Of a DNA stretch of 64,000 nucleotides, positions 1,780-62,539 are shown piece by piece (position 1 is the stretch's first letter; every line of letters starts with the position of its first letter). Where the stretch lies: assembly GCF_003130795.1 (NCBI RefSeq), contig NZ_CP029352.1, forward strand, positions 101,001 to 165,000, given 5' to 3'. The translations under genes were made by a program, and so were the position numbers. The notes beneath the pieces are model-generated. The model saw only the letters and a program-made list of their open reading frames with translations, made no database searches and was not told where the DNA came from. The DNA comes from Azospirillum thermophilum. GTDB lineage: Bacteria > Pseudomonadota > Alphaproteobacteria > Azospirillales > Azospirillaceae.

Positions 1780-2537
1780 CCGTCCATTTCATCGGTGCCG
1801 GACCGGGCGCCCCGGACCTGCTGACGATCCGCGGGCGGGACCTGATCGCCGCCTGCCCGGTCTGCCTCTATGCCGGATCGCTGGTGCCGAAGGAGATCCT
1901 GTCCTATGCCCCGCCGGGCGCCCGGGTGGTCGACACCGCGCCCATGACGCTGGAGCAGATCGTCGCTGAATTCGAAACGGCGCACGCCGCGGGGCAGGAC
2001 GTGGCGCGCCTGCACTCCGGCGACCTGTCGGTCTACAGCGCGCTCGGCGAGCAGACCCGCGCCCTGCGCGAGCGCGGCATCCCCTACACCATCACCCCTG
2101 GCGTTCCGGCCTTCGCGGCGGCGGCGGCGGCGCTGGGGCGCGAGCTGACCCTGCCGGAGGTCAGCCAGACGCTGATCCTGACACGGACGGAGGGACGCGC
2201 CTCGGCCATGCCGGCCAACGAGACGCTGGAGGTGCTGGGCGCCTCGGGCGCCACGCTGGCGATCCACCTGTCGATCCACGCCATCGACCGGGTGGTGGAG
2301 CGGCTCACTCCGCTCTATGGTGCCGATTGCCCCGCCGCCGTGGTCTACCGCGCGAGCTGGCCGGACGAACGGGTGCTGACCGGCACGCTCGGCGGCATCG
2401 CGGCCCGGGTGGCGGCGTCGCCGATGGAGCGCACCGCGCTGATCCTGGTCGGCAGGACGCTGGAGCGGGAGGATTTCCGATGCAGCGCGCTCTACGACGG
2501 CTCGCACGTCCGGCGCTACCGGGGGCTGGGGGAGTGA
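1776..2537 (+). CDS. cobM: precorrin-4 C11-methyltransferase
   Basis: This 253-residue tetrapyrrole methylase uses SAM to methylate C11 of precorrin-4, giving precorrin-5. The N-terminus [18 protein letters not shown] is the SAM-binding P-loop of the family. [12 protein letters not shown] and the [15 protein letters not shown] region follow at the usual spacing, and the length is normal. It is translationally coupled to the preceding gene through an ATGA overlap. It converges with cbiD, whose stop lies 18 bases away, and no clear hairpin terminator is visible between them. Confidence 0.93.
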
Positions 2538-4505: not shown

Positions 4506-6484
<1,979 letters not shown>

Positions 6485-32962: not shown

Positions 32963-33521
32963 GAGCTTCCTCGACCGCTGGTCCCGCCTGAAGCGCGGGA
33001 CCGCGACGCCCGCCGCCGGGGGGCCGGCCCGCGAAGAGCCGGCCGGCGAAAGCGCAGCCCCGCCGCCGGAGGAGGAGGAGGAGGCCGCCTCCGTCCTGCC
33101 GCCGCTCGACAGCCTGGGCGCCGACAGCGACTACAGCGCCTTCCTGGGCGAGCGCGTCCCGGAGGAGCTGCGCCGCCTCGCCCTGCGCAAGGCCTGGAGC
33201 AGCGACCCGAAGATCGCGGAGTTCCGCGGCTTCGCCGAGTATGACTGGGACTTCAACGCGCCGGGCTACGGCAGTCTGCTGCCCACCGACGACATCGCCC
33301 GGCTGCTCGACCGCGTCTTCCCCGACCAGCCCGCGCAGGAGGTGGCGGAAGAGGAGGCGCCGGAGGAAGCGGACCAGACGGCCGGCGGGACGGCCGCGGA
33401 GCCCGCCGCCATCGAGGATCCGCCCGCCGCCCTGCCCTCTCCGGGACCGGACGGGGAGATCGTCACGGCATCAGCTGACCGCCATTCACCTCCACCACCT
33501 GACCCGTCACATAGCCGCTGA
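32949..33521 (+). CDS. DUF3306 protein of the formate dehydrogenase cluster
   Basis: This 190-residue acidic protein starts ESFLDRWSRLKRG, followed by a disordered Pro/Glu-rich linker. The conserved DUF3306 core is FLGERVPEELRRLALRKAWSSDPKIAEFRGFAEYDWDFNAPGYGSLLP. It pairs with DUF3305 in formate dehydrogenase loci; the role is unknown, perhaps in maturation. The 3' end overlaps the end of the antisense SDR gene by 59 bases. The last 50 residues are low complexity and unlikely to be essential. Confidence 0.82.
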   Translation: MADRESFLDRWSRLKRGTATPAAGGPAREEPAGESAAPPPEEEEEAASVLPPLDSLGADSDYSAFLGERVPEELRRLALRKAWSSDPKIAEFRGFAEYDWDFNAPGYGSLLPTDDIARLLDRVFPDQPAQEVAEEEAPEEADQTAGGTAAEPAAIEDPPAALPSPGPDGEIVTASADRHSPPPPDPSHSR

Positions 33522-34275
33522 GCCGCTCCGACATCAGGAACAGATAGGCGCCGACGCAGTCCTCCGCCGTGCCGATGCGGCCGAGCGGGATGCGCGCGGC
33601 GGTGGCCGCCAGCTTCTCGGGCGTCGAGTAGCGCTGGTGGAAATCGGTGTCGATGGTGCCCGGCGACACCGCGTTGACGCGGATGCGGTCGCCGGCCAGC
33701 TCCGTCGCCAGCGAGCGGGTGAAGGTCGCCACGAAGGCCTTCGACGCGCTGTAGAGGGAGGAGCCGGGGCTGCCGCCGCTCCGCGCTGAAATTGAAACGG
33801 TGTTGACGATCACCCCGCCGCCGGCCGCCTTCAGGGCCGGCAAGGCCCGCCGGCAGGCGACCACCACCGAGCGCAGGTTCAGGTCCACCACCTCGTCGAG
33901 GAAGCCGTCCTCCAGCGCCGCCAGCGGCATGCGCCCGACCATGGTGCCGGCGTTGTTGACCAGCACGTCGAGCCCGCCCAGCGTCTCCACCGCGGCGTCG
34001 ACCACCGCCTCCACGGCGTCCGGCCGGCGGAAGTCGCCGGTCACCGCCCGCACGTCGGCCCCCTGCTCCGCCAGCGCCGCGGCGAGCCGATGCGCCGCGG
34101 CGCTCGATCCCGAGCCGTGCAGCACCACCCGCGCGCCCAGCCCGGCCAGCGCCACGCCCAGCGCGGCGCCAATCCCGCGGCTGCTGCCGGTCACCAGCAC
34201 GCGCCGTCCGCGCAGGTCGTCGCCCAGCACCGTCGCCGGCCAATCGCCCATGGTCATCGGCTCCGTCATGGTCAT
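33463..34275 (-). CDS. short-chain dehydrogenase/reductase
   Basis: This 270-residue NAD(P)-dependent oxidoreductase has TGSSRGIGAALG (cofactor loop), NNAGTMV, the catalytic Ser in VSISARSG, YSASK (Tyr-x-x-x-Lys) and the C-terminal SGYVTGQVVEVNGG. It belongs to the classical SDR group; the substrate is unknown. It lies antisense inside the formate dehydrogenase cluster, with its end overlapping the DUF3306 gene, so it was probably inserted there. The ATG at 34275 has GGGAAGGGAACG upstream. The coding sequence contains an iteron-like 16-mer at 33784-33799. Confidence 0.88.
   Translation of the reverse strand: MTMTEPMTMGDWPATVLGDDLRGRRVLVTGSSRGIGAALGVALAGLGARVVLHGSGSSAAAHRLAAALAEQGADVRAVTGDFRRPDAVEAVVDAAVETLGGLDVLVNNAGTMVGRMPLAALEDGFLDEVVDLNLRSVVVACRRALPALKAAGGGVIVNTVSISARSGGSPGSSLYSASKAFVATFTRSLATELAGDRIRVNAVSPGTIDTDFHQRYSTPEKLAATAARIPLGRIGTAEDCVGAYLFLMSERLSGYVTGQVVEVNGGQLMP
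33784..33799 (-). repeat. iteron-like 16-mer inside the SDR gene
   Basis: CGCTGAAATTGAAACG is the inverse of CGTTTCAATTTCAGCG, differing by one position from the origin consensus CGTTTCAAATTCAGCG. It is about 26 kb from the origin and is the most distant copy I found. A single copy this far away may be chance. Confidence 0.4.
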
Positions 34276-34409
34276 CGTTCCCTTCCCCCTTCGTTCCGGT
34301 CTCCAGGCCGGGAGCGGCAGCATACCGGCAGCGCCGGCCGGCCGCGTGACTTTTTCCCCGCCGCCCTGTTGTCGCTTCAACCGGAGCTGTGGGCAGAAGG
34401 GGGGCATCC

Positions 34410-35027
34410 GTGCCGTTCGGGGGAGTGACAGCATCGACGATCGACGACACCGACCTGATGCGGGCGCATGCCTATGCCCTGCTGGCCCGCACGCTGGCCC
34501 GGCCCCCGTCGGAGCTGCTGCTGACGACGCTGGGCGGGCTCGAAGGCGACGGCACCCCGCTGGGCGAGGCCTTCTCGGCGCTGGCCGCGGCGGCCCGCGC
34601 GACGGACGAGGCGGCGGCCGGCGCCGAGTACCACGCCCTGTTCATCGGCGTGGTCCAGGGCGAGCTGGTGCCCTACGCCTCCTACTACCGCACGGGGCTG
34701 CTGCACGACCGGCCGCTGGCCGAGCTGCGCGCCGACCTGGAGGCGCTGGGCATCGAGCGCGCCCCCGACGTGGCGGAGCCCGAGGACCATATCGCGGCCC
34801 TGTGCGAGACGATGGCCGCCCTGGCGGACGGCACGCTGGGTCCGCCGGACCTCCGGCTGCAGCACATCCTGTTCCGGCGCCACCTCGCCCCCTGGGCCGG
34901 GCGCTTCTTCGCCGATCTGGAGACCGCCCGGTCGGCCAGCCTCTACCGGCCGGTCGGAACCATCGGCCGGCTTTTCCTGTCCATCGAGACGGACTGCTTC
35001 GCGATGCTGGAGGACAGCGGGTCATGA
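34410..35027 (+). CDS. TorD/DmsD-family chaperone for formate dehydrogenase
   Basis: This 205-residue all-helical protein contains the TorD family features: AHAYALLARTLARPPSE near the N-terminus, EYHALFIGVVQGELVPYASYY (the E-x-x-x-L-F-x-G and P-Y-x-S core) and HILFRRHLAPWAGRFF. Such chaperones bind Tat signal peptides and help insert molybdenum or tungsten cofactor before export; the neighbour fdhA has a Tat signal. I choose GTG at 34410 because AAGGGGGGCATCC precedes it. The stop overlaps the start of the next small gene (ATGA). Confidence 0.82.
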   Translation: MPFGGVTASTIDDTDLMRAHAYALLARTLARPPSELLLTTLGGLEGDGTPLGEAFSALAAAARATDEAAAGAEYHALFIGVVQGELVPYASYYRTGLLHDRPLAELRADLEALGIERAPDVAEPEDHIAALCETMAALADGTLGPPDLRLQHILFRRHLAPWAGRFFADLETARSASLYRPVGTIGRLFLSIETDCFAMLEDSGS

Positions 35028-49570: not shown

Positions 49571-50431
49571 CCCGTCCCGCTGGGCCCCATCCCGCTGGGC
49601 CAGGGCCCCGCCGATCAGCAGCAGCGTCGGGCCCTTGCCGGCGGCGATCCCCTGCCCGGCCATCGCGCCGAGCGTCGTGCGCCAGCGCCGTTCGTCCGGG
49701 CGGCAGCCGTTCTCCACCGCCAGCACGGGCGTCGAGGCCGGAAGGCCGGCACCGGTCAGTCCCTGCCCGACGGCGCGGGCCTGGTCCCGCCCCATGTAGA
49801 TCGCCAGGGTCCCCTGCGGGTCGGCCAGGCGCGCCCAGTCCGGCTCGAACCGCTCGCCGTCGCGGCCGTGGGCGGTGACGAAGGTGACGGCGCGGGACAC
49901 GCCGCGGCGGGTCAGCGACAGGCCGGCACCCGCCGCGCAGCCGAGCGCCGCGGTGATGCCGGGGATGACCGTCACCGGGATGCCATGGGCGTCGAGCGCG
50001 TCGATCTCCTCCCCCGCCCGGCCGAAGATCATCGGGTCGCCGCCCTTCAGCCGCACCACCCGCCGGCCGGCCAGCGCGCGGGCGACGATCAGGGCGCTGA
50101 TCTCCTCCTGCGGCAAGGAGTGGCGGCCGGAGCGCTTGCCGACGCAGATCCGCTCGGCCGTCGCCGGGACCAGATCCAGGATGCCCTCGCCGACCAGATG
50201 GTCGTAGAGCACCACCTCCGCCGCCGCCAGCGCCTTGACCGCCGCCACCGTCAGCAGGTCGGGATCGCCGGGGCCGGCGCCGACCAGCGCCACGCTGCCC
50301 GGCGGAGGGCGCCGCGTCGAGCGGGCGCCGGAGGCGGAGCGGCGCAGCGTCACCACCGCCCGCAGCCCCTCCCCCACCCGCAGCAGGAGGCCGAGCAGGC
50401 CGGGGTCAGGCAACTTCACGCTGGCGTGCAT
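49514..50431 (-). CDS. uroporphyrinogen-III C-methyltransferase for siroheme (second SUMT)
   Basis: This 305-residue SUMT has an N-terminal extension of about 45 residues followed by VALVGAGPGDPDLLTVAAVKAL, VVRLKGGDPMIFGRAGEE and VIPGITAALGCAAGAGLSLT. It makes precorrin-2, the siroheme precursor required by NirB. The ATG at 50431 has a near-perfect AAGGAGGTG 7 bases upstream and overlaps the nasA end by 26 bases, so it is the last gene of nirB-nirD-nasA-SUMT. It is distinct from cobA at 3702-4505, which lacks the extension. Confidence 0.9.
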   Translation of the reverse strand: MHASVKLPDPGLLGLLLRVGEGLRAVVTLRRSASGARSTRRPPPGSVALVGAGPGDPDLLTVAAVKALAAAEVVLYDHLVGEGILDLVPATAERICVGKRSGRHSLPQEEISALIVARALAGRRVVRLKGGDPMIFGRAGEEIDALDAHGIPVTVIPGITAALGCAAGAGLSLTRRGVSRAVTFVTAHGRDGERFEPDWARLADPQGTLAIYMGRDQARAVGQGLTGAGLPASTPVLAVENGCRPDERRWRTTLGAMAGQGIAAGKGPTLLLIGGALAQRDGAQRDGLQGGAPAAVDRCAAGDLG

Positions 50432-53093
50432 GCTGAAGCACCTCCTTCAATTCGGGAACGCATGACCCGCAGTTGGTCCCCGCCTTCAGCGCGCGGCCGA
50501 TCTCCGGGACCGAGGTCAGACCCTGATCGCGGATCGCGGCGATCAGGCGGGTGAGGCCGACGCCGAAGCAGGAACAGACGATCCGGCCCTGGTCCGCCGT
50601 CCCGGCCGCGGCACCGGGCGCCCGCCCGGCCAGCACGGCCGCGCGGTCCCCGGCGTCGAGCCCGTCCGCCGCCAGCAGCCCGGCGAGCCAGGAGCGCGGC
50701 GGCAAGGCGTCGCCGGCCGCCAGGAACAGGCAGCCCTCCAGCCTGTCCTGGCACAGCCAGGCGCGGCGCCGCACGCCGCGGGCGTCGTCGCTGTACTCCA
50801 CCACCGCGCCGTCGGGGGCGAAGCCGGGCAGCCAGGCCAGCTCCTCCAACGCCGGCAGCCGGCCGGTGCCCGCCAACTCCACCAGATGACCACCGGTCAC
50901 CACGCGACGCGCCCAATAGCCGTCATGGGCCGGCTCCACCGGCCGGCGCGCCAGCAGGAAGCCGGTCCAGGTGGGCCGGTAGGGCTCCACCGCCGCCGGC
51001 ATCCGCTTGAGGTCCGGCTGGCCGGAGTGGGGGTCGACCGCCTCGTCGTCGATCAGCCGCCCGATCACCGCGCGGGCGGCGAAGCGGTCGGTCCAGTGCA
51101 TCGGCAGGAAGAGGGTGCCTTCGGCCACCGCCTCCGTCACGCGGACACGGACCAGCGCTTCCCCGGCCGCCGTGGTGACGCGGGCGAGGCCGCCGTCCGC
51201 CACGCCGCGCGCCGCGGCGTCGGCCGGATGGATGTCCAGGCAGGGCTCCGGCGCATGGGCGGACAGGCGGGGTGACAGGCCGGTGCGCGTCATGGTGTGC
51301 CACTGGTCGCGCAGCCGTCCGCTGTTCAGCAGCAGAGTTCCGGCCGGCAGCGGGCGGGGCAGCGGCGCCGTCCGCACCGGGACGAGCCGCGCCCGGCCGC
51401 TGCCGGTGAAGAACCGCCCGTCGCCGAAAAGCCGCCGCTGCGGACCCTGCCCTGCCCGCCGCGGCCAGGCTGCCGGGGCGAGCGTTTCAAATTCAGCGTC
51501 GCTCAGATCCGCCAGCGCGCCGATGTCGAAGGCGCGGCGGCCGTCATTCTCGAAGGCCGACAGGGCGGCATGCTCGCGAAAGACCGCCGCGGCGGTCTCA
51601 TAGGGGAAGGCGTCGGCGAAGCCCATGGCGCGCGCCACCTGCGTGACGATCCACCAGTCGGGCCGCGCCTCGCCGGACGGCGGCAGGAAGGCGCGCTGGC
51701 GGGAGATGGTGCGGTCGGAGTTGGTGACGGTGCCGTCCTTCTCGCTCCATCCCACCGCCGGCAGGCGGATATGGGCGAGGCGGGCGGTATCGGTGTCGGC
51801 GATGCAGTCGGAGACGATCACCGTCCCGCAGGCGGCCAGCGCCCGGCGGACGCGGCCGGCGTCGGGCATGCTGACGGCCGGATTGGTGCCCATGATCCAG
51901 ACCGCCCTGATCTCCCCCCGCTCCACCGCGCGGAACAGGTCGACCGCCTTCAGCCCCGGCCGGGCCGCCATGCGCCGGGCCCGCCAGAAACGGCCGACGC
52001 GCTCCACCTCCTCCGCGCCGAAGCCCATATGGGCGGCAAGCTGGTTGGCGAGGCCGCCGACCTCGCGCCCGCCCATCGCGTTGGGCTGGCCGGTGACGGA
52101 GAAGGGCCCCATGCCCGGCCGGCCGATCCGCCCGGTCAGGAAATGGACGTTCAGGATGGCGTTGACGGTGTCGGTGCCCTGGCTCGACTGGTTGACGCCC
52201 TGGGAATAGACGGTGACGACGCGCTCGGCCGTTGCAAATTCAGCGTAGAATCCGCTGACGTCGTCCACGCTGATTTTGCAACGCTCCGCCACCGCCGCCG
52301 GGTCGGGCGCCTCGGCACGGGCGGCGGCCAGCGCCTCCCCCTCTCCCTCCGCATGCTTGCCGACGAAGACGCCGTCGGTGAGGCCTGCATCATGCAGATG
52401 GGTCAGCAGCCCGTTGAACAGCAGGGCGTCGGTACCGGCGCGAATGGCGAGATGGCGGTCGGCCCCGTCCGCCGTCGCCGTGCGCCGCGGATCGACCACG
52501 ACGATGCGGGTGCCGCGCGCCGCCTTGGCCGCCAGCAGCCGCTGGTACAGCACGGGATGGCACCAGGCGAGGTTGGAGCCGACCAGCACCACGAGGTCGG
52601 CCAACTCCAGATCCTCGTAGGTCACCGGCACGGTGTCGGCGCCGAAGCCGCGCTTGTGCCCGGCGACGGAGGAGGCCATGCAGAGCCGCGAGTTGGTATC
52701 GACGTTGGCCGAGCCGATGAAGCCCTTCATCAGCTTGTTGGCGACGTAGTAATCCTCGGTCAGGAGCTGGCCGGACAGGTAGAAGGTGACCGATTCCGGC
52801 CCGTGCTGCGCCACCGTCCGGGAGAGCCGCGTTGCGACTTCAGCGATGGCGGTGTCCCAGCCGACCCGGCGCCCCCCGATCTCGGGGTGGAGCAGGCGGC
52901 CGCCGCCCCGCTCGTTCGGCACCAGCGTTTCCGCCAGCGCCGACCCCTTGGAGCAGAGCCGCCCGGAATTGGCGGGATGGTCGGGATCGCCGCGCACGGC
53001 GACCGTGCCGTCCGCCGCCACGCTGGCGACGACGCCGCAGCCGACCCCGCAATAGGGGCAGGTGGTCCGGATGTCCCTCCCGGCATCAGCCAT
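50406..53093 (-). CDS. nasA: assimilatory nitrate reductase catalytic subunit
   Basis: This 895-residue cytoplasmic molybdoenzyme reduces nitrate to nitrite. The N-terminal CPYCGVGC...LCSKGSAL binds a 4Fe-4S cluster, followed by MGD-binding segments (NVDTNSRLCMASSVAGH, WIMGTNPAVSMPDA, TNSDRTISRQRAFL). A C-terminal BFD-like [2Fe-2S] domain (VCSCFGVGLTRL...GTNCGSC) is fused, as in NasA of Klebsiella. No separate NADH-reductase subunit is nearby. The ATG at 53093 is chosen; a GTG at 53102 is in frame. The gene overlaps nirD and contains four iteron-like 16-mers. Confidence 0.93.
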   Translation of the reverse strand: MADAGRDIRTTCPYCGVGCGVVASVAADGTVAVRGDPDHPANSGRLCSKGSALAETLVPNERGGGRLLHPEIGGRRVGWDTAIAEVATRLSRTVAQHGPESVTFYLSGQLLTEDYYVANKLMKGFIGSANVDTNSRLCMASSVAGHKRGFGADTVPVTYEDLELADLVVLVGSNLAWCHPVLYQRLLAAKAARGTRIVVVDPRRTATADGADRHLAIRAGTDALLFNGLLTHLHDAGLTDGVFVGKHAEGEGEALAAARAEAPDPAAVAERCKISVDDVSGFYAEFATAERVVTVYSQGVNQSSQGTDTVNAILNVHFLTGRIGRPGMGPFSVTGQPNAMGGREVGGLANQLAAHMGFGAEEVERVGRFWRARRMAARPGLKAVDLFRAVERGEIRAVWIMGTNPAVSMPDAGRVRRALAACGTVIVSDCIADTDTARLAHIRLPAVGWSEKDGTVTNSDRTISRQRAFLPPSGEARPDWWIVTQVARAMGFADAFPYETAAAVFREHAALSAFENDGRRAFDIGALADLSDAEFETLAPAAWPRRAGQGPQRRLFGDGRFFTGSGRARLVPVRTAPLPRPLPAGTLLLNSGRLRDQWHTMTRTGLSPRLSAHAPEPCLDIHPADAAARGVADGGLARVTTAAGEALVRVRVTEAVAEGTLFLPMHWTDRFAARAVIGRLIDDEAVDPHSGQPDLKRMPAAVEPYRPTWTGFLLARRPVEPAHDGYWARRVVTGGHLVELAGTGRLPALEELAWLPGFAPDGAVVEYSDDARGVRRRAWLCQDRLEGCLFLAAGDALPPRSWLAGLLAADGLDAGDRAAVLAGRAPGAAAGTADQGRIVCSCFGVGLTRLIAAIRDQGLTSVPEIGRALKAGTNCGSCVPELKEVLQHARQREVA
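51483..51498 (+). repeat. iteron-like 16-mer inside nasA
   Basis: CGTTTCAAATTCAGCG matches the origin consensus exactly. On the nasA strand it reads as codons GCT GAA TTT GAA ACG, using AT-ending codons that are rare in this GC-rich gene. Confidence 0.7.
52230..52283. repeat. pair of iteron-like 16-mers in inverted orientation inside nasA
   Basis: CGTTGCAAATTCAGCG at 52230-52245 and CGCTGATTTTGCAACG at 52268-52283 face each other across 22 bases. Both match the origin repeat family and break the local GC-rich codon pattern. Confidence 0.7.
52830..52845 (+). repeat. iteron-like 16-mer inside nasA
   Basis: CGTTGCGACTTCAGCG is identical to the origin copy at 59870-59885. Confidence 0.7.
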
Positions 53094-53439
53094 GGCAGCC
53101 ACCCCGGCCGGGGGTGCGGGCGGCGAGAGCCAGCGAGATCACCCCGCCCTCGATCCGCACCGGGACATGGCCGGCACAGCCCTCGTCGGGGGCCACCGCC
53201 TCGCCGGTGGCGAGTTCGATCACCCAGTTGTGCAGCGGGCAGGTGACGCGGCGGCCGTGCACGATCCCCTGCGACAGCGGCCCGCCCTTGTGCGGGCAGC
53301 GGTCCTCCAGGGCGAAGACCTCGTCGGTCGCCGTGCGGAACAGCGCGACGTCGCCGAAGGCCGTCTTCACGACACGGGAGCCCTGGCGGGGAATGTCCGC
53401 CACGCTGCCGACTTCGGTCCAGGCAATCATCTGATCCAT
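53086..53439 (-). CDS. nirD: nitrite reductase small subunit, Rieske type
   Basis: This 117-residue partner of NirB has a complete Rieske motif, CPHKGGPLSQG and CPLHNW, so it should carry a [2Fe-2S] cluster. Many enterobacterial NirD proteins keep the fold but lack the ligands. It transfers electrons within the NADH-dependent nitrite reductase. It lies 5 bases after nirB and its end overlaps the nasA start, so the three are one transcription unit. Confidence 0.92.
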   Translation of the reverse strand: MDQMIAWTEVGSVADIPRQGSRVVKTAFGDVALFRTATDEVFALEDRCPHKGGPLSQGIVHGRRVTCPLHNWVIELATGEAVAPDEGCAGHVPVRIEGGVISLALAARTPGRGGCHG

Positions 53440-53444
53440 GGTCG

Positions 53445-55910
53445 TTACCCCACCAGTTCGGCAAGCGGTGCGAATTCGTGACGATCGACGCCCCTGGCGG
53501 CGCGCTCCGCCCACGGGTCCTCCTGCGAGAAGCTCTGGGAGAAGAGGAAGCGGGCGTGCAGCGCCCTGCGCCCCCCGGCATCCCCGACCAGCCGCCTGCG
53601 GATGTGGTCGAGGCCGACGCGCTCGACCCAGGGCGCGGTCCGCTCCAGGTAGCGGGCCTCCTCGCGGTAGAGCTGCAGGAAGGCGCCGGTGTATTCCAGC
53701 ACCTCCTCCTCCGTCGCGACCTTGGCCAGCAGGTCGCAGGCGCGGACATGCATGCCGCCGTTGCCGCCGACATGCAGCTCGTAGCCGCTGTCGACGCAGA
53801 CGACGCCGAGGTCCTTGATCGTCGCCTCGGCACAGTTGCGCGGGCAGCCGGAGACGGCCAGCTTCACCTTGTGCGGCGTCCAGGTGCCCCAGGTCATCTT
53901 CTCCAGCTTCACGCCGAGGCCGGTGGAATCCTGCGTGCCGAAGCGGCACCATTCGGAGCCGACGCAGGTCTTCACCGTGCGAAGCCCCTTGGCATAGGCA
54001 TGGCCGGAGACCATGCCGGCGGCGTTGAGGTCGGCCCAGACCGCCGGCAGATCCTCCTTCTTCACGCCGAACAGGTCGATGCGCTGCCCGCCGGTGACCT
54101 TGACGGTGGGAATGGCGAACTTCTCGACGACATCGGCGATCGCGCGCAGTTCGCTCGCCGACGTCAGCCCGCCCCACATGCGCGGGACGACGGAATAGGT
54201 GCCGTCCTTCTGGATGTTGGCGTGGGCGCGTTCGTTGATGAAGCGCGACTGGTAGTCGTCCCGGTACTCGCCCGGCCAGGCGCACAGCAGATAGTAGTTC
54301 AGCGCCGGCCGACAGGAGGCGCAGCCGTCCGGCGTGGACCACTCCAGCGCCTGGAAGACGTCGGACATCGTCTTCAGCCCGTGTGCGACGATGGCCGCCC
54401 GCACCGCGTCATGGCCGTGCGTGGTGCATTTGCACATCGGCTTGACCGCCGGGGCCGCGGCATAGCCGTCGCCCAGCGTCGCCGCCAGCAGCGTCTCCAC
54501 CATGCCGGTGCAGCTTCCGCAGGAGGCGGAGGCCTTGGTGTGGGCGCGCACCTCGTCCAGGCTGGTCAGGCCCTTGTCCCTGATGGCCGCGGTGATGGTG
54601 CCCTTGCACACGCCGTTGCAACCGCAGATCTCCGCACTGTCCGGCAGGGCGGCGACGGCGGCGGCAGGGCTCGCTGCCTCTCCTCCTCCGAACCCCTGGC
54701 CGAAGATCAGCGTATCGCGCTCGGCGGAGACGTCGGCACCGTCCTTCAGCAGCGAGAAGTACCAGGGGCCGTCCCTGGTATCGCCGTAGAGCACGGCGCC
54801 GAGCAGCCGGTTGTCCTTGAGGACGAGGCGCTTGTAGACGCCGCGGGCGGCGTCGCGGAAGACGATGTCCTCCGTCCCCTCGCCGCCCGAGAAGTCGCCG
54901 GCGGAGAAGACGTCGACGCCCGTCACCTTCAGCTTGGTCGAGGTGACGGAGCCCGCATAGGCCGCCTCCGTCCCGCCGGCCAGCCGCTCGGCCAGCACCT
55001 TCGCCATCTCGAACAGCGGCGCCACGAGGCCCCAGGTGACACCGCGATGCTCGACGCACTCGCCGACCGCATGGATCGCCGGGTCGGAGGTCCGCATGGC
55101 GTCGTCGACCTTGATGCCGCGCCCGCAGTCCAGGCCGGCCGCCTTGCCGAGCGCGATGTTCGGCCGGATGCCGACCGCCATGACGACGAGGTCGGCCGGC
55201 AGCTCCCGCCCATCCTTCAGCCGCACGGCGGTGACACGCTCGCTGCCGCCGATCCCGCCACCGATGATCTCCGCGGTGTCGGCACCGGTCAGCACGGTGA
55301 TGCCGCGCGCCTCCAGCTCCCGCTGCAGCAGCGTGCCGGCGGAGGGATCGAGCTGGCGTTCCATCAGCGTCGGCATCAGGTGCACGACGGTGACGTCCAT
55401 GCCCTTCAGCGCCAGCCCGTTCGCCGCCTCCAGCCCCAGGAGTCCGCCGCCGATCACCACGGCCCGGCCGCCCTTCGCCGCCGCCTCCAGCATCGTTTCA
55501 ACATCAGCGAGGTCGCGGAAGCCGATCACCCCCGGCAGGGTCGCCCCCGGCACCGGAATGATGAAGGGCATCGATCCGGTCGCCAGCAGCAGCCGGTCAT
55601 AGCCCAGCGTCCGGCCGGACAGCGAGGTGACGGTGCGGGCGGCGCGGTCGATCGCCTCCACCGGCTCGCCGGTCAGCAGCGTGATGCCGTTCGCCTCGTA
55701 CCAGGCGCGGTCGTTCAGGATGATCTGCTCGAAGCTCTTTTCCCCGGCCAGCACGGGGGAGAGCATGATGCGGTTGTAGTTCGGGTGCGGCTCGGCCCCG
55801 AACACGGTGATGTCGTAGCGGTCCGGCGCCCGCGCCAGCAGCTCCTCCACCGTGCGGATGCCGGCCATGCCGTTGCCGACGACGATCAGGCGTTCCTTCT
55901 GGGCGGTCAT
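53445..55910 (-). CDS. nirB: NAD(P)H nitrite reductase large subunit
   Basis: This 821-residue assimilatory nitrite reductase reduces nitrite to ammonium with six electrons from NAD(P)H. The N-terminal FAD/NAD module has VVGNGMAGIRTVEEL and AVVIGGGLLGLEAANGL. Two BFD-like Cys clusters follow (CGCNGVCKG...CGSC and CKCTTHG...CASC). The siroheme/4Fe-4S ligands are in CVGSEWCRFG and SGCPRNCAE. The ATG at 55910 opens MTAQKERLIVVGNG. A leader of about 120-190 bases upstream contains a terminator-like hairpin. One iteron-like 16-mer lies in the gene (55494-55509). Confidence 0.95.
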   Translation of the reverse strand: MTAQKERLIVVGNGMAGIRTVEELLARAPDRYDITVFGAEPHPNYNRIMLSPVLAGEKSFEQIILNDRAWYEANGITLLTGEPVEAIDRAARTVTSLSGRTLGYDRLLLATGSMPFIIPVPGATLPGVIGFRDLADVETMLEAAAKGGRAVVIGGGLLGLEAANGLALKGMDVTVVHLMPTLMERQLDPSAGTLLQRELEARGITVLTGADTAEIIGGGIGGSERVTAVRLKDGRELPADLVVMAVGIRPNIALGKAAGLDCGRGIKVDDAMRTSDPAIHAVGECVEHRGVTWGLVAPLFEMAKVLAERLAGGTEAAYAGSVTSTKLKVTGVDVFSAGDFSGGEGTEDIVFRDAARGVYKRLVLKDNRLLGAVLYGDTRDGPWYFSLLKDGADVSAERDTLIFGQGFGGGEAASPAAAVAALPDSAEICGCNGVCKGTITAAIRDKGLTSLDEVRAHTKASASCGSCTGMVETLLAATLGDGYAAAPAVKPMCKCTTHGHDAVRAAIVAHGLKTMSDVFQALEWSTPDGCASCRPALNYYLLCAWPGEYRDDYQSRFINERAHANIQKDGTYSVVPRMWGGLTSASELRAIADVVEKFAIPTVKVTGGQRIDLFGVKKEDLPAVWADLNAAGMVSGHAYAKGLRTVKTCVGSEWCRFGTQDSTGLGVKLEKMTWGTWTPHKVKLAVSGCPRNCAEATIKDLGVVCVDSGYELHVGGNGGMHVRACDLLAKVATEEEVLEYTGAFLQLYREEARYLERTAPWVERVGLDHIRRRLVGDAGGRRALHARFLFSQSFSQEDPWAERAARGVDRHEFAPLAELVG
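55494..55509 (+). repeat. iteron-like 16-mer inside nirB
   Basis: CGTTTCAACATCAGCG differs from the consensus CGTTTCAAATTCAGCG at two middle positions. On the nirB strand it encodes AlaAspValGluThr within DLADVETMLEAA. Confidence 0.6.
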
Positions 55911-56033
55911 GCGCGGTGCTCCCGGCTGGAGGGGAGACCGGGGGTTAGGGCCGGAAACGGGTGGTGCATGCTCATGGCGTCTGCCTCGTCTTCGGTCCGG
56001 TCCGCCGCGATCGCGCGGGGGGAGCCGGTGCGG

Positions 56034-56100
56034 AAAAAAGAAATGGCGCCCGAACCGGCCGGCTTCCCCGGTGGGGAAGCCTGCCAATTCGGACGCCATT
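56034..56100 (-). terminator. attenuator-like terminator in the nirB leader
   Basis: On the minus strand, AATGGCGTCCGAA (from 56100) pairs with TTCGGGCGCCATT (ending 56042) with one U-G wobble. A perfect inner hairpin GGCTTCCCC-ACC-GGGGAAGCC is enclosed, and the structure is followed by CTTTTTT (A run at 56034-56039). It lies about 125 bases before the nirB start and is read toward nirB. Such leader terminators precede nitrate/nitrite assimilation operons controlled by ANTAR antiterminators (NasR, NasT). No ANTAR gene is in the window. Confidence 0.6.
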
Positions 56101-56108
56101 GCCCGGAC

Positions 56109-56124
56109 GGTTCGTCGTCGAACC
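56109..56124 (-). promoter_or_regulatory. small hairpin preceding the nirB leader terminator
   Basis: GGTTCG-ACGA-CGAACC (minus strand) is a perfect 6-bp stem just upstream of the terminator. Two successive hairpins, the second overlapping a terminator, is the arrangement bound by ANTAR proteins, but the loop does not clearly match the published hexaloop consensus. Confidence 0.35.
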
Positions 56125-56432
56125 CTTATTGTTCGGCCCCGGCGTCGCTGCGTCGCGCCGCCCGGGCCTCAATTCGCGGGTACCGACGACGTTGCCGGTC
56201 TCCCGTGAAGCCTCGCATCCGGTATCGCAAGCCGCGTGCCAGAGCCCCGGGTCCGGTGGGGCAGGGACGGGAAAGCGAGGGAGTCCGCGGGTCGGGGCGG
56301 TCGGAAGGGCCGCGGCGGACCGGGCAGGGGCTGCTGCGGTGCGGCACCGGCTTTGACCAGAGTATGGGCAGAGGCTGCCTTTCTGGCGAAAAATTGATCA
56401 GGCTTCTGCACGGGAATCAGCCGGGATGGCAA

Positions 56433-56448
56433 CGCTGAATTTGAAACG
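56433..56448 (-). repeat. iteron-like 16-mer in the nirB-mug gap
   Basis: CGCTGAATTTGAAACG is the exact reverse complement of CGTTTCAAATTCAGCG. The gap 55911-56726 otherwise holds the nirB leader and no supported gene. Confidence 0.7.
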
Positions 56449-56646
56449 GGCAGGGCGATGGACACAGGTTGCTTGTCCGGTCCGCCCGTCCATGGCACAC
56501 TCCGGCCATCCTGAAAAGCTGCGAACACCGCCCCGGATCGCCGGCCACAGCCGATACCGGCGCCTCTCGAGTCGCGGAAGCGATTCTCAGGTTTGGTAGC
56601 ATTCGGAGCCGGAAAGCCTTGAAAAGCCTGGGTTGCCGGAGGCCGG

Positions 56647-56726
56647 CGTTACGACTTCAGCGTTGCCGCAATGGCCGCCGGCGATTCCCTGTTGCATCTG
56701 TCATCGGCCAACGCTGAAGTCGCAAC

Positions 56727-56727
<1 letters not shown>
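56647..56727. repeat. two iteron-like 16-mers immediately upstream of mug
   Basis: CGTTACGACTTCAGCG lies at 56647-56662 and CGCTGAAGTCGCAACA at 56712-56727, inverted relative to each other. The second ends on the first base of the mug ATG, so protein bound there would affect mug expression. Confidence 0.65.
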
Positions 56728-57292
<565 letters not shown>

Positions 57293-57308
<16 letters not shown>

Positions 57309-58162
57309 TCCAGCAGGGCGTGCAGCCGCCGCAGCTCTTCCCACTGGCTGTCGGTCAGTTCCTTGCGGTGGTCGCGCAGATCCCGCACATCGACGGCGGC
57401 GAAGTCGCGGGCGATGCGCTGCGCCGCCTCGACCAGACGGAAGACCGGCGGGGGAGCCGGCTTGCGCTCCGCCCGGGCGGCGTCGCCGCCGGCGCGCTTG
57501 GCCTCGCGCAGAGCCTTGACGGTGCCGCCGTCCTTGATGGTGTCCCACAGGCGGCGCTGCAGCGCCGGGTCGTCCACCGCGGCGATCTCCGTCAGGATGC
57601 TCTTGGGCACGCTGCGGTACCGGCCCTCATACTCGTCCAGAATGTCATCGGGCAGGCGGAGCAGAGACAGGGTGCGGGTAACCTCGGCCTGGCTGCGGCC
57701 GATCACCTGCCCCAGCTCCTCATGGGTGTAGTCGTGCCGCTCGATCAGCCGGGCGAAGGCGCGGGCAAGCTCCAGGGCGTCGAGGTCGACACGCTGGATG
57801 TTCTCGATCAGCGCCAGCTCGTCGGGGTCGCCGTCGGTGACGATGGCGAAGATGGTCTTGCGGCCGGCCAGCGCACAGGCGCGCAGGCGCCGCTCCCCCG
57901 CCACCAGACGATAGGTGCCGTCGTCCGCCTCCTGCACCAGCACCGGCTGCTTCAGCCCGTGCCGCTCGATGGAGTCGGCCAGCTCGCGCAACTGCTCCTC
58001 GTCGAAGTGCCGGCGCGGCTGGTCGGGGTTGCGGTACACCTTATCTATGTCGACTTCGATCAGCCGGGGGAAGTCGGCCGACAGTCCGAACAGCGCATCG
58101 CCGCCGCGCTGGGCCGCCTTGTCGAGGATACGGCTGCTGGTGCGTTCGAGCTTACGGGGCAT
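57293..58162 (-). CDS. parB: ParB-family partition protein
   Basis: This 289-residue ParB has the N-terminal CTP-binding/ParB domain with [43 protein letters not shown] and [15 protein letters not shown]. The helix-turn-helix follows ([27 protein letters not shown]). The C-terminal part is Ala/Arg-rich and ends in a probable dimerisation helix. It binds centromere sites and works with ParA. Its start overlaps the parA end by 11 bases. The exact binding site is not known; no canonical TGTTTCACGTGAAACA was seen. Confidence 0.92.
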
Positions 58163-59186
58163 GGGCGCTCTCCGCCGGGCTGGTCGTGTTCGTCAGATGC
58201 GCGATGACGGCCCGCGCCAGCTCCGCATAGGCCTGCACGCTGGTCGAGTTGGGATCGGCCTCGATCGCCGGGCGGCCGGCGCCCGACGCCTGGGCGAACA
58301 GCGTGGCGCGGGGAACCGGCGGCAACACGCGGGTGCGGCCGACATAGTGGGTCTGGATTTCCTTCAGGCTCGCCTGATCCTGGGTGAGGCGCGCGGAGTA
58401 CATGGTCGGCAGGATGCCGAAGATGTTGAGCGACGGGTTGGAGCGCCGGCGGATCTTGGCGATCGTCTCCATCAGCAGCGGCACGCCGAGTCCGGCGAAC
58501 ACCTCGGTCTGCACCGGGATCAGCACGAGGTCGGACGCCGCCAGCGCATTGATGGTGAGCAGGCCGAGGTTGGGCGGACAGTCGATCACCATCACGTCGT
58601 AGCGGCCGCGCAGCTCCGCCAGCTTCTCCTTCAGCACCAGGGAATTGTCGGGCTCCGCCACCAGCTCCGTCTCGGCGGCGGCGAGGCCGATGCTGGAGGG
58701 GGCCAGCGTGAAGGCGCCGTCGCAAACCGGCCGCAGGATGGTGTCGAAGGAGGCGCCGCCCCGCAGCACGCCGTAGAGCCCCTTGCGCGCGGTCTCGATC
58801 TCCCCCGGATCGAGACCGACATGCACCGTGGCGTTGGCCTGCGGGTCGCTGTCGATCAGCAGGACCCGTAGCCCCTGGCTGGCCAGCGCATAGGAGAGGT
58901 TGACCGCCGTCGTCGTCTTGCCGACCCCGCCCTTCTGGTTGGCGACCGCGATCACCGCCCGGCGGACGAGTCGCGGCTTTCCGTCATCGGGCTGGTCGGC
59001 CTCGGCGACTGCCTGCGACTGCAGGAAGGCGGCGACCTGCTGGGGAATGCGCTCGGCCCCGCTCTCCCACCGGCTGACGCGGGAGCGGTCATAGCGGCGG
59101 TTGAGGTGGCCGTTCAGCCATCCGGCGAATCCCTGCTGGTCTTCGCCGCGCCGTTCGCGGATGGCGCGCAGTTCTTCGCCCGTCAT
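58152..59186 (-). CDS. parA: ParA-family partition ATPase with N-terminal helix-turn-helix
   Basis: This 344-residue type Ia ParA. Residues 1-60 form an XRE-like HTH ([34 protein letters not shown]), as in plasmid ParA proteins that repress their own promoter. From about 75 the deviant Walker A KGGVGKTT (85-92), the [13 protein letters not shown] segment and [11 protein letters not shown] define the ATPase. It moves ParB-bound DNA during segregation. Palindromes at 59225-59331 upstream are natural operator candidates. It forms an operon with parB. Confidence 0.94.
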
Positions 59187-59224
59187 GGGACCTCCGGGAA
59201 TTTCTCGCGGCCGACTTTACGGAT

Positions 59225-59265
59225 GTGACGCAAGCGGTCAAGCCCGGGCGTGCGGCTTGCGTCAC
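59225..59265. promoter_or_regulatory. 11-bp inverted repeat upstream of parA
   Basis: GTGACGCAAGC (59225-59235) and GCTTGCGTCAC (59255-59265) are perfect arms around 19 bases, 40-80 bases before parA. Candidate parA operator or centromere element. Confidence 0.45.
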
Positions 59266-59285
59266 CGAACCGGCGGATCCTCGTT

Positions 59286-59331
59286 TCATACGACGTCGTA
59301 TGAGACAGCGATCCTATACGACGTCGTATGA
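59286..59331. promoter_or_regulatory. tandem palindromes upstream of parA
   Basis: TCATACGACGTCGTATGA (59286-59303) and a second ATACGACGTCGTAT core (59316-59329) are centred 28 bases apart. Perfect, duplicated dyads about 100-145 bases before parA fit binding by the ParA HTH (autorepression) or a ParB site. Confidence 0.6.
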
Positions 59332-59416
59332 GGAGGCTTCTTGTGCAGTGCCGCGACTCGCCGAGTCGTTCCGCCGTCGCATCGATCGCAGGCAAATCGG
59401 CCACGGCGTGCCGGAG

Positions 59417-60145
59417 CGTTACAAATTCAGCGTCGATTCCGCTCCACTATAGCGAGTCGGTCATTGAAGAGTCACGATTCCCATGTTTCAAATTCAGCGT
59501 CCGGTCCACGACTGATCCAGGGGACTCCCCGTTACAAATTCAGCGTCGACTCGCCGATTCGCTGGAAGCCCTGGAAAGCCTCGCTTTTGTCGCTCCGCGT
59601 TACAAGATCAGCGTGCCCAAAATCCTGTCCCGCCGAGCCTTCGCCATGAGCCGGACGTTTCAAATTCTGCGACGCTCAGCCCTGGAAAGCCCCGACTCGC
59701 TCCGCCACAGGTCCGTGCCGTTGCGTTTTCAGCGAAGATCGAGGTTCCGGGGAGGGCAGGGTGCCCGCCTGTCCGCCGGCAAGCCCGCGCGCACCGGTCT
59801 ACAGGGACTCTGAATCGGGAGTCTCATATAGGACATGGTTGCGAATTCAGCGTGGAAAACCGCCCTTTTCGTTGCGACTTCAGCGCAAACAAGTGCCCCG
59901 GCGTTGCGACTTCGGCGAGACTGCCGTTGCGTCTTCAGCGCGGCGGATCCGCTGCCGTCCCGCCTGCTGTTGCGGACTCAGCGAGGACAACGGCCCGTCC
60001 CCTGTGGAAAAGCCGCTGCAGTCCTGCAGCCGCGTCGCTGAGTTTGTAACGCCCCGTCCCGGAAGCCGGCCGCCGCACCGGGGCTGCCGCCCGTCCTATC
60101 GCTGAAGTCGCAACGGAATCTGCACGGAGCGTTGCAAACTCAGCG
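59417..60145. other. replication origin with 14 iterons
   Basis: Fourteen copies of a 16-mer of consensus CGTTRCRAMTTCAGCG occur. Forward copies start at 59417, 59484, 59530, 59598, 59656, 59719, 59837, 59870, 59902, 59925, 59968 and 60130. Reverse copies lie at 60036 and 60100. The two subtypes are GTTACAAATTCAGCG-like in the left half and GTTGCGACTTCAGCG-like in the right. A DnaA-box-like TTTTCCACA (reverse strand) lies at 60003-60011, and 16 GANTC sites lie between 59355 and 60149. The region carries no supported gene, is AT-richer, and sits between parA and repA, so it is the replicon origin. Confidence 0.8.
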
Positions 60146-60174
60146 AATCGTGGTATCGACACCGCTTCACAGCC

Positions 60175-60189
60175 ACCACATTTTGTGGT
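60175..60189. promoter_or_regulatory. inverted repeat in the repA promoter region
   Basis: ACCACA-TTT-TGTGGT lies 53-67 bases before the repA start, just after the last iteron. Likely operator or core promoter element for repA. Confidence 0.4.
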
Positions 60190-60241
60190 TTGTGAGAGAC
60201 GGTGATGTCGCGGCGGTAACGAAAGTCGGTTGAGGGTGTCC

Positions 60242-61219
60242 ATGGCCAAGATCCACGAGCAGCTGACCCTGGAGGGGTTCGAAGCGGTCCTTGCCCGCAC
60301 CGAGGACCCCAAGGAGCGGCGGCGCGTGATCATGGCGCACGAGGCGCTGTCCAACGAGATGGACGCCATCGGCTACCTCCATGCCGGCTTCTGCCAGGCC
60401 TCGCTGCCGCACCGCAAGCCGAAGGACGAGACCGCCCCCTGGGTGCGCAACAACGGCCGCTACCAACTCGTCGTCCGTCCCGGCATCCTGCCGCTGCGCG
60501 ACGGCACCGTGCTGGACGTCGGCGTCCCCTACGGCGCCAAGGCGCGCCTGATCATGATCTACCTGCAGACCGAGGCCCGCAAGACGCGCAGCCCGCACGT
60601 CGACCTCGGCCCAAGCATGAGCGCCTGGCTGCGCCGCCTCGGCCTCGCCCCGACGGGCGGCGAGCGCGGCAACTACAAGCCGGTGCGCGAGCAGGTGCTG
60701 CGCATCGCCCGCTGCGAGTTCACCCTGCGCACCACCACCGGCAACAGCAGCGCGGAAATCTCCGATCAGCGCCTGATCGACGGCATCAAGCTGTGGCGCG
60801 ACGACGAGGACACCCCCGACCTGTTCCGCACCGGCGGGGAGTGGGTGCGCTTCGTCCGCCTGACCCAGAGCTTCTTCGAGCATCTGATGGAGCATGCCGT
60901 CCCGCTCGACGAGCATGCCATCGCCAAGCTGAAGAACTCCGCCCTGGCGCTCGACGCTTATGTCTGGCTGGTCCACCGCCTGCACCGGCTGGACAAGCAG
61001 ACCTTGGTGCCCTGGCACGCGCTGTCCCAGCATTTCGGCTCGGTCAGCGAGCACCGCGTGCTGGCCTTCCGCCTGAAGGAGGCGCTGAAGGACGTCATGG
61101 CCGTCTATCCCGACGCCAACATCGAGCCGACGTCGAAGGGCCTCGTCCTGCGACCGTCGCCGCCGGCCGTTCCCTCCAACAAGCACCTGATCCTGCGCCC
61201 CGCCGCGATCCGCGGCTGA
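60242..61219 (+). CDS. repA: replication initiator protein, RepA_C family
   Basis: This 325-residue protein resembles the plasmid-encoded RepA proteins (RepA_C) found on large replicons of Azospirillum and relatives. Features are the central GVPYGAKARLIMIYLQTEARKTRSPHVDLGPSMSAWLRRLGL, GERGNYKPVREQVLRIARCEF and a C-terminal half with winged-helix-like SALALDAYVWLVHRLHRL and LVPWHALSQHFG. It presumably binds the iterons next to it and opens the origin. GAGGG six bases upstream supports the ATG at 60242 over an in-frame TTG at 60230. The promoter region overlaps the last iteron, so autoregulation is expected. Confidence 0.88.
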   Translation: MAKIHEQLTLEGFEAVLARTEDPKERRRVIMAHEALSNEMDAIGYLHAGFCQASLPHRKPKDETAPWVRNNGRYQLVVRPGILPLRDGTVLDVGVPYGAKARLIMIYLQTEARKTRSPHVDLGPSMSAWLRRLGLAPTGGERGNYKPVREQVLRIARCEFTLRTTTGNSSAEISDQRLIDGIKLWRDDEDTPDLFRTGGEWVRFVRLTQSFFEHLMEHAVPLDEHAIAKLKNSALALDAYVWLVHRLHRLDKQTLVPWHALSQHFGSVSEHRVLAFRLKEALKDVMAVYPDANIEPTSKGLVLRPSPPAVPSNKHLILRPAAIRG

Positions 61220-62048
61220 GGCCGGGAGCGATCCGAACGGAACGGTGCCGGGGATCAGCCCAGCGCCATCATCTCCTCCTGAACCAGCGGGGTGCCGGAC
61301 GCCCCGCGCACCCGCACGACGCTGCGGCCGCCGCCCAGCGGCTCCACCCGGATCTGCACGCCGATCCGGTCGACCATCGCCGGCACATGGCTGATGACGC
61401 CGACCTGTCGGCCGCTCGCCTGCAGGGCCTCCAGGCAGGAGAGCGCGACGTCGAGGCTGTCGGATCGAGCGTCCCGAATCCCTCGTCGATGAACAGGGTG
61501 CCGATCCCGCCGGCCGTCCCCGCCGCCATCGCCGACAGGCCTAGCGCCAAGGCCAGCGACACCAGGAACAGCTCGCCGCCCGACAGGCTGTGCACCCCGC
61601 GCCGCTCGTCGGCCATCTCGCGGTCCACCACCTGGATTTCCAGGTCCGCCCCGGCGACCCGTTCCAGCCGATAGCGGCGCGCCAGATCCTCCAGATAGCG
61701 GTTGGCCTGGACCAGCAGCGCATCCAGGCTGAGGCTCTGGGCGAAGTTGCGCATCTTCTGCCCGTTGGCCGAACCGATCAGCTCGTTCAGCGAGGCCCAT
61801 AGCCGGTAGCGTTCCCGCTGCGCCTCGACCGCCCCCATGATCGAGGCGAGCCGATCCCGGTTCTGCCGGTCGGCGTTCAGCCGCCCGCGCAGCTCGGCCA
61901 GCCGGTCGCGCAGCGCCCGCAGCCGCTCGCCCGCTTCCGCCAGGGCGGCCTGCGCCTCCTCGGCGGTCAGGGCGGGGACGCCGGCCGCATGATGCTCCCG
62001 CCGCTGCCGCTCGCGCTCCGCCAGCAGCAGGGAGGCGTCGCGCCGTGC

Positions 62049-62064
62049 CGTTTCAAAATCAGCG
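62049..62064 (+). repeat. iteron-like 16-mer inside sbcC
   Basis: CGTTTCAAAATCAGCG differs from CGTTTCAAATTCAGCG at one position, about 1.9 kb beyond the origin iterons. On the coding strand it gives LeuAlaAspPheGluThr with AT-ending codons unusual for this gene. Confidence 0.65.
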
Positions 62065-62523
62065 AGGGCGGCTTCCTCCCGCTCCAGCCAGCCCTCGTCA
62101 TGGGAGAGGTGGCGCCGCGCCTCCTCCACGCCGACCGCGCAGGCCTTCGCCCCGTCCTCCAGCCGCTCCGCCGCCTCGGCGGCCTTGCCGGCGCAGGCGT
62201 GGGCCGCTTCGCGCCGCGTCGCGACCTCCTGTTCGGCGGCGGACAGGCGGGCGGCGGCATCCTGCCGGGCGATGGTGGCGTGATCGACCAGCGCATGGGC
62301 GCGGGTCCGGCGGGCGTCCAGCCCGGCCCGCACCTCCGCCACCGGCCGGCCGTCGAGCAGTCCCGCCCGCTCCCGCCGGGCATCGCCGACCAGCCCGGCC
62401 AGACCGTCCACCCGCTCCCCGGCCGCCGTCGCCGCCGTCTGCGCCGACTCATGGGCGGCGGCGCGGGCGGCCAGCGCGGTCTCCGCCTCGGCCGTCCGGC
62501 CTGCCGCCTGGGCCAGCGCGGCT

Positions 62524-62539
62524 CGCTGAGTTTGAAACG
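62524..62539 (-). repeat. iteron-like 16-mer inside sbcC
   Basis: CGCTGAGTTTGAAACG is the reverse complement of CGTTTCAAACTCAGCG, one position from consensus, in the opposite orientation to the copy at 62049. Confidence 0.65.

Follow-up and report, generated by a model that had tools for sequence, protein, structure and literature searches.

The 64,000-nucleotide stretch of Azospirillum thermophilum DNA analyzed here (hereafter the window) corresponds to bases 101001-165000 of a 1,351,902-base contig (NZ_CP029352.1, or C1) in a genome of 6.78 Mb assembled in 9 contigs. This 1.35-Mb contig comes from an Azospirillum chromid that carries a RepA_C initiator, and our subject is a 16- to 17-mer that forms the iteron array of its replication origin and recurs outside it, including within protein-coding genes. 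Among the nearest relatives identified through RepA, 17 of 18 loci are labelled Azospirillum, the remaining one being Roseomonas genomospecies 6. The genes parA and parB lie upstream of repA on the opposite strand, the iteron array fills the gap between parA and repA, and GC skew across the window gives no origin signal. Genomes, contigs and loci are cited below by G, C and L numbers, respectively, and the neighborhood of the origin comprises the following features, in window positions:

50406-53102, minus strand: nasA-type molybdopterin oxidoreductase gene, with four sites inside
53445-56099, minus strand: nirB-type gene, with one site inside
57293-58162, minus strand: parB, without a site in the window
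58152-59186, minus strand: parA, with a weak N-terminal helix-turn-helix match under the curated cut-off
59288-59329, no strand: two copies of the palindrome ATACGACGTCGTAT, between parA and the iterons and distinct from them
59417-60145: origin iteron array, 14 copies of a YGTTDCRAMTTCAGCGW-like 16- to 17-mer, 12 on the plus strand and 2 on the minus strand
60242-61219, plus strand: repA, coding for a 325-residue initiator of the Pfam family RepA_C (PF04796), predicted double winged-helix
61269-63983, minus strand: sbcC-like gene (SbcC_Walker_B), with two sites inside

The longer repA frame, which starts at 60230, matches PF04796 with an E-value of 5.5e-32 (111.9 bits against a cut-off of 26). 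The structure model of the protein (predicted local distance difference test, pLDDT, 79.8) has the predicted double winged-helix fold of replication initiators, and its matches in the PDB include RctB and RepE, domains 2-3 of RctB being the nearest. This likeness is one of fold only; a phmmer search of the PDB sequences returned no RctB chain at E ≤ 1. All 14 origin copies reported by the initial annotation of the window are present, 9 of them exact matches to the pattern CGTTNCNNNNTCAGCG and 5 with one mismatch. They form an iteron array of short, non-palindromic repeats, 12 of the 14 in direct orientation, upstream of repA. The array is kept in 18 relatives and in Tistrella, and the consensus YGTTDCRAMTTCAGCGW was derived from 224 distinct origin sites.

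Outside the origin, the window contains the following copies:

1964-1979, minus strand: exact, in a tetrapyrrole-methylase open reading frame (1419-2537)
33784-33799, minus strand: exact, in an SDR-family open reading frame (33463-34434)
51483-51498, plus strand: exact, in nasA
52230-52245, plus strand: exact, in nasA
52268-52283, minus strand: exact, in nasA
52830-52845, plus strand: exact, in nasA
55494-55509, plus strand: exact, in nirB
56433-56448, minus strand: exact, in the gap between nirB and mug
56647-56662, plus strand: exact, upstream of mug
56712-56727, minus strand: one mismatch (T as its first base), sharing one base with the mug start codon
62049-62064, plus strand: exact, in sbcC
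62524-62539, minus strand: exact, in sbcC

The initial annotation had listed 11 outlying copies, all of which are present where it placed them (10 exact, and the one at 56712 with one mismatch). It presented the copy at 33784 as the only far outlier; that copy is real, but a second far exact copy at 1964 had been overlooked. A scan of the window that tolerated two mismatches yielded 50 matches against a shuffle mean of 31.9, a total reached by 1 of 100 shuffles, and was dropped. Since this total only modestly exceeds that of the shuffles, loose matches carry little meaning.

Within genes, the copies are associated with an unusual choice of codons. When the synonymous codons of nasA, nirB and sbcC were shuffled, the observed number of sites (4, 1 and 2, respectively) was reached in 0 of 3000 shuffles for each gene. 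The recourse to otherwise rare AT-ending codons that the initial annotation had pointed out is borne out as well, as third codon positions inside the sites end in A or T in 24 of 40 cases (13 of 23 in nasA, 4 of 6 in nirB and 7 of 11 in sbcC) in genes whose GC content at third positions ranges from 0.89 to 0.91. A coincidence of protein conservation and codon choice could in principle produce such copies, and some of them do encode conserved residues, such as LADV in nirB. We give this explanation next to no credence, given the outcome of the shuffles, the other codons and often other residues used by orthologues from genomes lacking this RepA, and the chance-level density of the motif in the rest of the genome described below.

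Genome-wide scans were made with exact patterns only, CGTTNCNNNNTCAGCG for the A. thermophilum genome and YGTTDCRNNNTCAGCG for the genomes of the genus, so that degenerate sites escape and all counts are lower bounds; the replicon assignment of draft contigs is uncertain in several genomes, and orthologous sites are not independent of one another. With zero mismatches, 28 matches were found in the 6.78 Mb of A. thermophilum, 23 of them on C1 and 20 within C1:102964-163539, and the reversed control pattern gave 0 matches. A RepA of at least 90% identity is encoded by 25 of the 45 genomes of the genus (A. thermophilum included), each of which has 15-28 matches; 19 of the 20 RepA-negative genomes have 0-6, which is about chance. 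The exception, G021, is reported separately: its 32 matches are mostly one 16-mer, CGTTTCGGCATCAGCG, of an unrelated, dispersed, insertion-sequence-like repeat, found on contigs C1-C7 and lying in an identical context in both copies read (L130 and L131).

The distribution along the chromid was assessed in seven near-closed genomes (6-10 contigs), counting sites more than 20 kb from repA as distal and using rounded genome sizes. Each of these chromids (1.7-2.0 Mb) bears 17-22 exact-pattern sites, origin included, and the distal ones lie on both arms, some of them hundreds of kb from repA. Altogether, 64 distal sites occur in 12.76 Mb of chromid (5.0 per Mb) vs. 13 sites in 38.9 Mb of other replicons (0.33 per Mb, for a base-composition expectation of 0.34 per Mb), a 15-fold higher density, with per-genome conditional binomial p-values from 0.0024 down to 8e-7. 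The independent background off the chromid is lower still, because a single recurring 16-mer accounts for 7 of those 13 sites. An equal density of the motif across the genome, which the initial annotation had named as one of two outcomes that would refute its proposal, is not what is found: density is unequal and concentrated on the chromid. The extent that it gave for the array (about 8 kb upstream and 2.4 kb downstream) proved too small, as in related species the sites in nasA lie about 13-28 kb from repA and further conserved ones hundreds of kb from it.

The outlying sites also resemble the origin iterons at positions outside the search pattern. When 101 distinct outlying 28-mers were compared with 224 distinct origin 28-mers, the two sets shared preferences for A at position 8 (A8; 0.93 and 0.76, respectively), T at position 10 (0.69 and 0.68) and A or T at position 17 (0.92 and 0.86); the outlying set includes orthologous copies, so its members are not independent of one another. 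In the near-closed genomes, A8 is found in 54 of the 64 distal chromid sites vs. 0 of the 13 sites elsewhere. Judged by their sequences, the outlying sites are of the same kind as the origin iterons, so that origin-type sites occur outside the origin of the same replicon, as in datA-like or RctB-type arrangements. Sites that lie on both arms, several of them conserved in position within genes, could also be RepA sites that fold or tether the chromid, looping the origin to nasA and to distal loci and giving the nucleoid a replicon-specific order, with replication control as a secondary role; handcuffing is physically a bridging of DNA, as is established for iteron plasmids. The densest clusters are near the origin and the distal density is low, at about 5 per Mb, and we regard a primarily architectural role as unlikely.

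Comparison with RepA-negative orthologues provides stronger evidence for the nature of the sites than does conservation at third codon positions. The nasA alignment covered 41 genomes, i.e., 24 of the 25 RepA-positive and 17 of the 20 RepA-negative ones (G005 gave no match, the G030 gene was incomplete, and none was fetched for G023 or G032). The site at 52230 is exact in 22 of the 24 RepA-positive genomes and the one at 51483 in 19 (with one mismatch in 3 more). At 52268 and at 52830 an exact site is found in 6 of 24, the six genomes being the same for both, and none of the four is exact in any of the 17 RepA-negative genomes. Two further places in nasA hold an exact site in 5 of the 24 RepA-positive genomes. 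Although nasA sites lie 7-9 kb from repA in the window and about 13-28 kb in related genomes, their spacings are largely kept (747 bp in several genomes, 759 in G002; 38 and 600 bp in five-site genomes). Where the site is present the encoded residues differ too, with YADFET in place of YEDFEC or YEDLE.

Genes elsewhere on the chromid behave likewise. A TPR/GT41 gene was found in 39 genomes, and 30 orthologues were aligned. In what we take to be the brasilense group it carries a pair of sites, separated by 736 bp, in 12 of the 13 genomes and one exact site in the 13th; elsewhere, one site is present in G028 and none in G010 or 15 others. In six near-closed brasilense-group genomes the gene belongs to the chromid, at a distance of 217-344 kb from repA. 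Ten of the 15 site-free genes are from genomes without this RepA; in the others the gene lies on another replicon-scale contig (G011) or on another draft contig (G002, G012, G016 and G042). Here again residues change with the site, from LLLAL to LMLQR. For the RNase E/G gene (30 genes aligned from the 45 genomes), the site is exact in 10 of 13 brasilense-group genomes and has one mismatch in the other 3; it is exact in 0 of 17 others, 10 of which lack this RepA. Two genes close to the origin, parB and sbcC, were compared within RepA-positive loci alone. In parB, 11 of 18 aligned loci (presumably the brasilense/soli group) have an exact site within the coding sequence. Among 17 RepA-positive loci, the window included, the sbcC site at 62049 is occupied at homologous codons in 5 (the others being L006, L007, L020 and L021) and the one at 62524 in 2 (the other being L010). 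Conservation at third positions was less discriminating: in 22 nasA genes with sites, the site windows rank 103 and 52 of 2453, a moderate discrimination, and the two GT41 sites rank 1 and 989 of 2089, a mixed result. The codons of the sites are not kept in nasA, GT41 and RNase E/G orthologues from genomes without this RepA, the reverse of what the initial annotation had set out as counter-evidence, and together with the synonymous shuffles this supports its suggestion that the DNA site itself is selected. The sites are specific to the replicon, co-occur with RepA and are conserved as DNA rather than as protein, a pattern best understood as the product of selection acting on DNA and not on protein.

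The genes concerned could also suggest that RepA or another factor regulates them by using the outlying copies as operators, since nasA, nirB and mug form one neighborhood and the site at 56712 overlaps the mug start codon. The distal sites examined, however, lie within coding frames of unrelated genes, often in antisense, and the array persists even as its outlying sites vary from gene to gene and from species to species, making a regulatory role most improbable.

The initial annotation also proposed that the motif is the ParB centromere (a parS array) of the chromid, which the present evidence disfavors. On the one hand, parAB adjoins the array, the sites are clustered around the origin, a resemblance to canonical parS has been noted for the GTTTCA half, and direct repeats upstream of parAB on Deinococcus secondary replicons have been investigated as to both origin and parS-like function (PMC7671480). 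On the other hand, the motif is non-palindromic, the consensus YGTTDCRAMTTCAGCGW showing no dyad, and does not travel with its ParB. In A. halopraeferens (which we take to be G017), the ParAB orthologues (75-76% identical) are not on the repA contig and their 16 kb contain 0 sites, vs. 12 sites in the 18-kb repA stretch, where the array is retained. The repA contig of A. halopraeferens has a distinct parAB (41-49%) 52 kb away, the parB of which contains one iteron-like site (L116, positions 5034-5921, and L164). In Tistrella, ParB is only 44% identical and the motif is identical. Moreover, a better candidate for parS, or for a par (ParA) operator, is the palindrome next to parA: AT[AG]CGACGTCG[CT]AT is present in one or two copies in all 17 parAB-bearing loci examined, as well as in the window and in the two Azospirillum plasmid records that were read. 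In L006-L021, L023, L025 and L026, ATACGACGTCGTAT or a variant differing by one base lies between parA and the iterons. We therefore hold the centromere explanation to be very unlikely. Visual inspection showed, upstream of parA at about 59215-59265 of the window and in relatives, an inverted TGACGCAA...TTGCGTCA pair that is a possible ParA operator.

What the sites do is best approached through the initiator. With moderate confidence, and on comparative grounds, we favor the view that the outlying copies are RepA titration or handcuffing sites selected as DNA. The 16- to 17-mers would be binding sites of the chromid's own RepA, the 14 origin copies serving as replication iterons and the flank copies (in nasA, nirB, the mug gap, parB and sbcC), along with the sparser distal ones, serving as extra RepA sites retained by DNA selection in whichever gene they fell. 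Flank clusters would pair with the origin via RepA-RepA contacts (handcuffing), and a passing fork would double the sites, drain free RepA and thereby delay a second firing in the same cell cycle; clusters near the origin may thus both titrate and handcuff, and distal sites may add titration as forks pass. Of the uses envisaged by the initial annotation, this one is the best supported: an array tied to the initiator stands, while RepA binding of the outlying copies and the ensuing inhibition of initiation are what we infer.

The orientation of the sites bears on this view. Across the seven near-closed chromids, the direction of the presumed fork is shared by 49 of the 64 distal sites (45:9 for A8 sites and 4:6 for non-A8 sites, when split by hand) and opposed by all 35 flank sites (those within 20 kb), which face repA. 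This fork polarity is no more than suggestive, as many of the sites are orthologous, symmetric inversions preserve polarity, and origin and terminus were assumed. A bolder extension, which we put forward tentatively and consider less probable than not, is that RepA boxes spanning the full 1.7-2.0 Mb may be a plasmid-type counterpart of chromosomal DnaA boxes, acquired by genes that settle on the chromid and lost from those located elsewhere, the conserved distal boxes being fork-oriented and fork progress being read as RepA drainage.

Several observations weigh against RepA titration and handcuffing as the function of the sites. Titration needs no orientation and leaves the polarity bias of distal and flank sites unexplained. 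External sites are obligatory in no single gene: the nirB site at 55494 is exact in A. thermophilum only (1 of 40 aligned nirB), G010 has its GT41 and RNase E/G genes on the chromid contig without exact sites, and in L007 and L008 the stretch examined shows a single site beyond the origin. Both main nasA sites are missing from the RepA-positive G017 and G040, where nasA is not on the repA contig; contig separation in drafts does not by itself explain this, since in G001, G007 and G028 nasA is likewise on another contig than repA, yet these genomes keep sites. Finally, spread sites are no general need of RepA_C replicons, because the TTGAACYTTGGTGACGC origin type described next stays within about 4 kb and the whole Tistrella plasmid has one far match. 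As far as seen, spread sites belong to this RepA lineage in Azospirillum.

The other origin type is carried by replicons that we take to be lipoferum-like (L097-L102), which have a different RepA (39% identical) and the iteron TTGAACYTTGGTGACGC in 11-14 copies within about 4 kb around repA, some just downstream (14 in 4 of 5 genomes, 11 in G044). It was rejected as a second case of spread sites for want of any spread along its own replicon, and no TTGAACYTTGGTGACGC with up to two mismatches was found in 17 RepA-negative nasA stretches. Other contigs hold 3-6 copies of TTGAACYTTGGTGACGC per genome vs. a naive estimate of about 0.2; the 8 that were looked at all overlap long open reading frames, and these copies may be coincidental or may be cross-replicon sites. 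Some of these off-replicon copies (L124-L129, L132, L133 and others) recur in the same gene across genomes. A. thermophilum itself has, on C2 (2.54 Mb), a RepA_C gene accompanied by a different family of iterons, of the approximate sequence TTGGCRATCGCCGACC (L005, G000:C2:23991-27428). As for a crtS-like chromosomal site, each of the seven near-closed genomes has a single copy of the recurring 16-mer mentioned above on a replicon other than the chromid. This 16-mer lacks A8, and in the four contexts that were read (L117-L120) it is the beginning of a gene, where it encodes MKRFALS; it was judged probably coincidental, and no convincing crtS-like site was found in a search limited to the 16-mer motif.

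It is an open question by what means a replicon of plasmid origin becomes a chromosome that is copied once per cycle, and most of what has been worked out comes from Vibrio cholerae. Azospirillum offers an independent comparative-genomic case, in another bacterial class and with a different initiator, and comes with natural controls, namely the same gene with sites on the chromid and without sites in RepA-lacking genomes. If our interpretation is right, initiator control reaches as far as the amino-acid sequences of unrelated enzymes, and synonymous recoding allows each site to be tested individually. Searches of the open-licence literature brought up no Azospirillum study of iterons or of initiator sites outside the origin.

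Several known systems share features with the one proposed here. The control iterons of plasmids P1 (incA) and F (incC) are likewise extra iterons beyond a minimal origin, but these lie near their origins, whereas the Azospirillum sites reach across hundreds of kb of genes. Replicon-spread initiator sites able to titrate their initiator recall the DnaA boxes and datA of E. coli, the chromosome of which has more than 300 near-consensus boxes according to PMC3937223; unlike these, the Azospirillum sites would answer to a plasmid-type initiator and number 17-22 exact-pattern sites on a chromid of 1.7-2.0 Mb. The review PMC6090056 covers titration and handcuffing and assigns iteron chromids to beta- and gammaproteobacteria and repABC chromids to alphaproteobacteria. 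The Azospirillum replicon resembles the chromids described there in being a secondary chromosome with a plasmid-type initiator, and differs from them in having an iteron-type origin on an alphaproteobacterial chromid. The remark of the initial annotation that ordinary iterons are confined to the origin holds only in part, as PMC3937223 reports external iterons for plasmids and for V. cholerae chromosome 2. On the latter, sites lying beyond ori2 are bound by RctB, titrate this initiator and have an inhibitory effect on chromosome-2 replication (Baek and Chattoraj, 2014). This RctB or datA-like system is the closest likeness, with initiator-type sites outside the origin of the same secondary replicon and a predicted RepA fold nearest to that of RctB. 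Unlike it, the Azospirillum system has an initiator of the PF04796 family in another bacterial class, and its sites span the whole chromid, within coding sequence and with codon and amino-acid changes, across 25 genomes.

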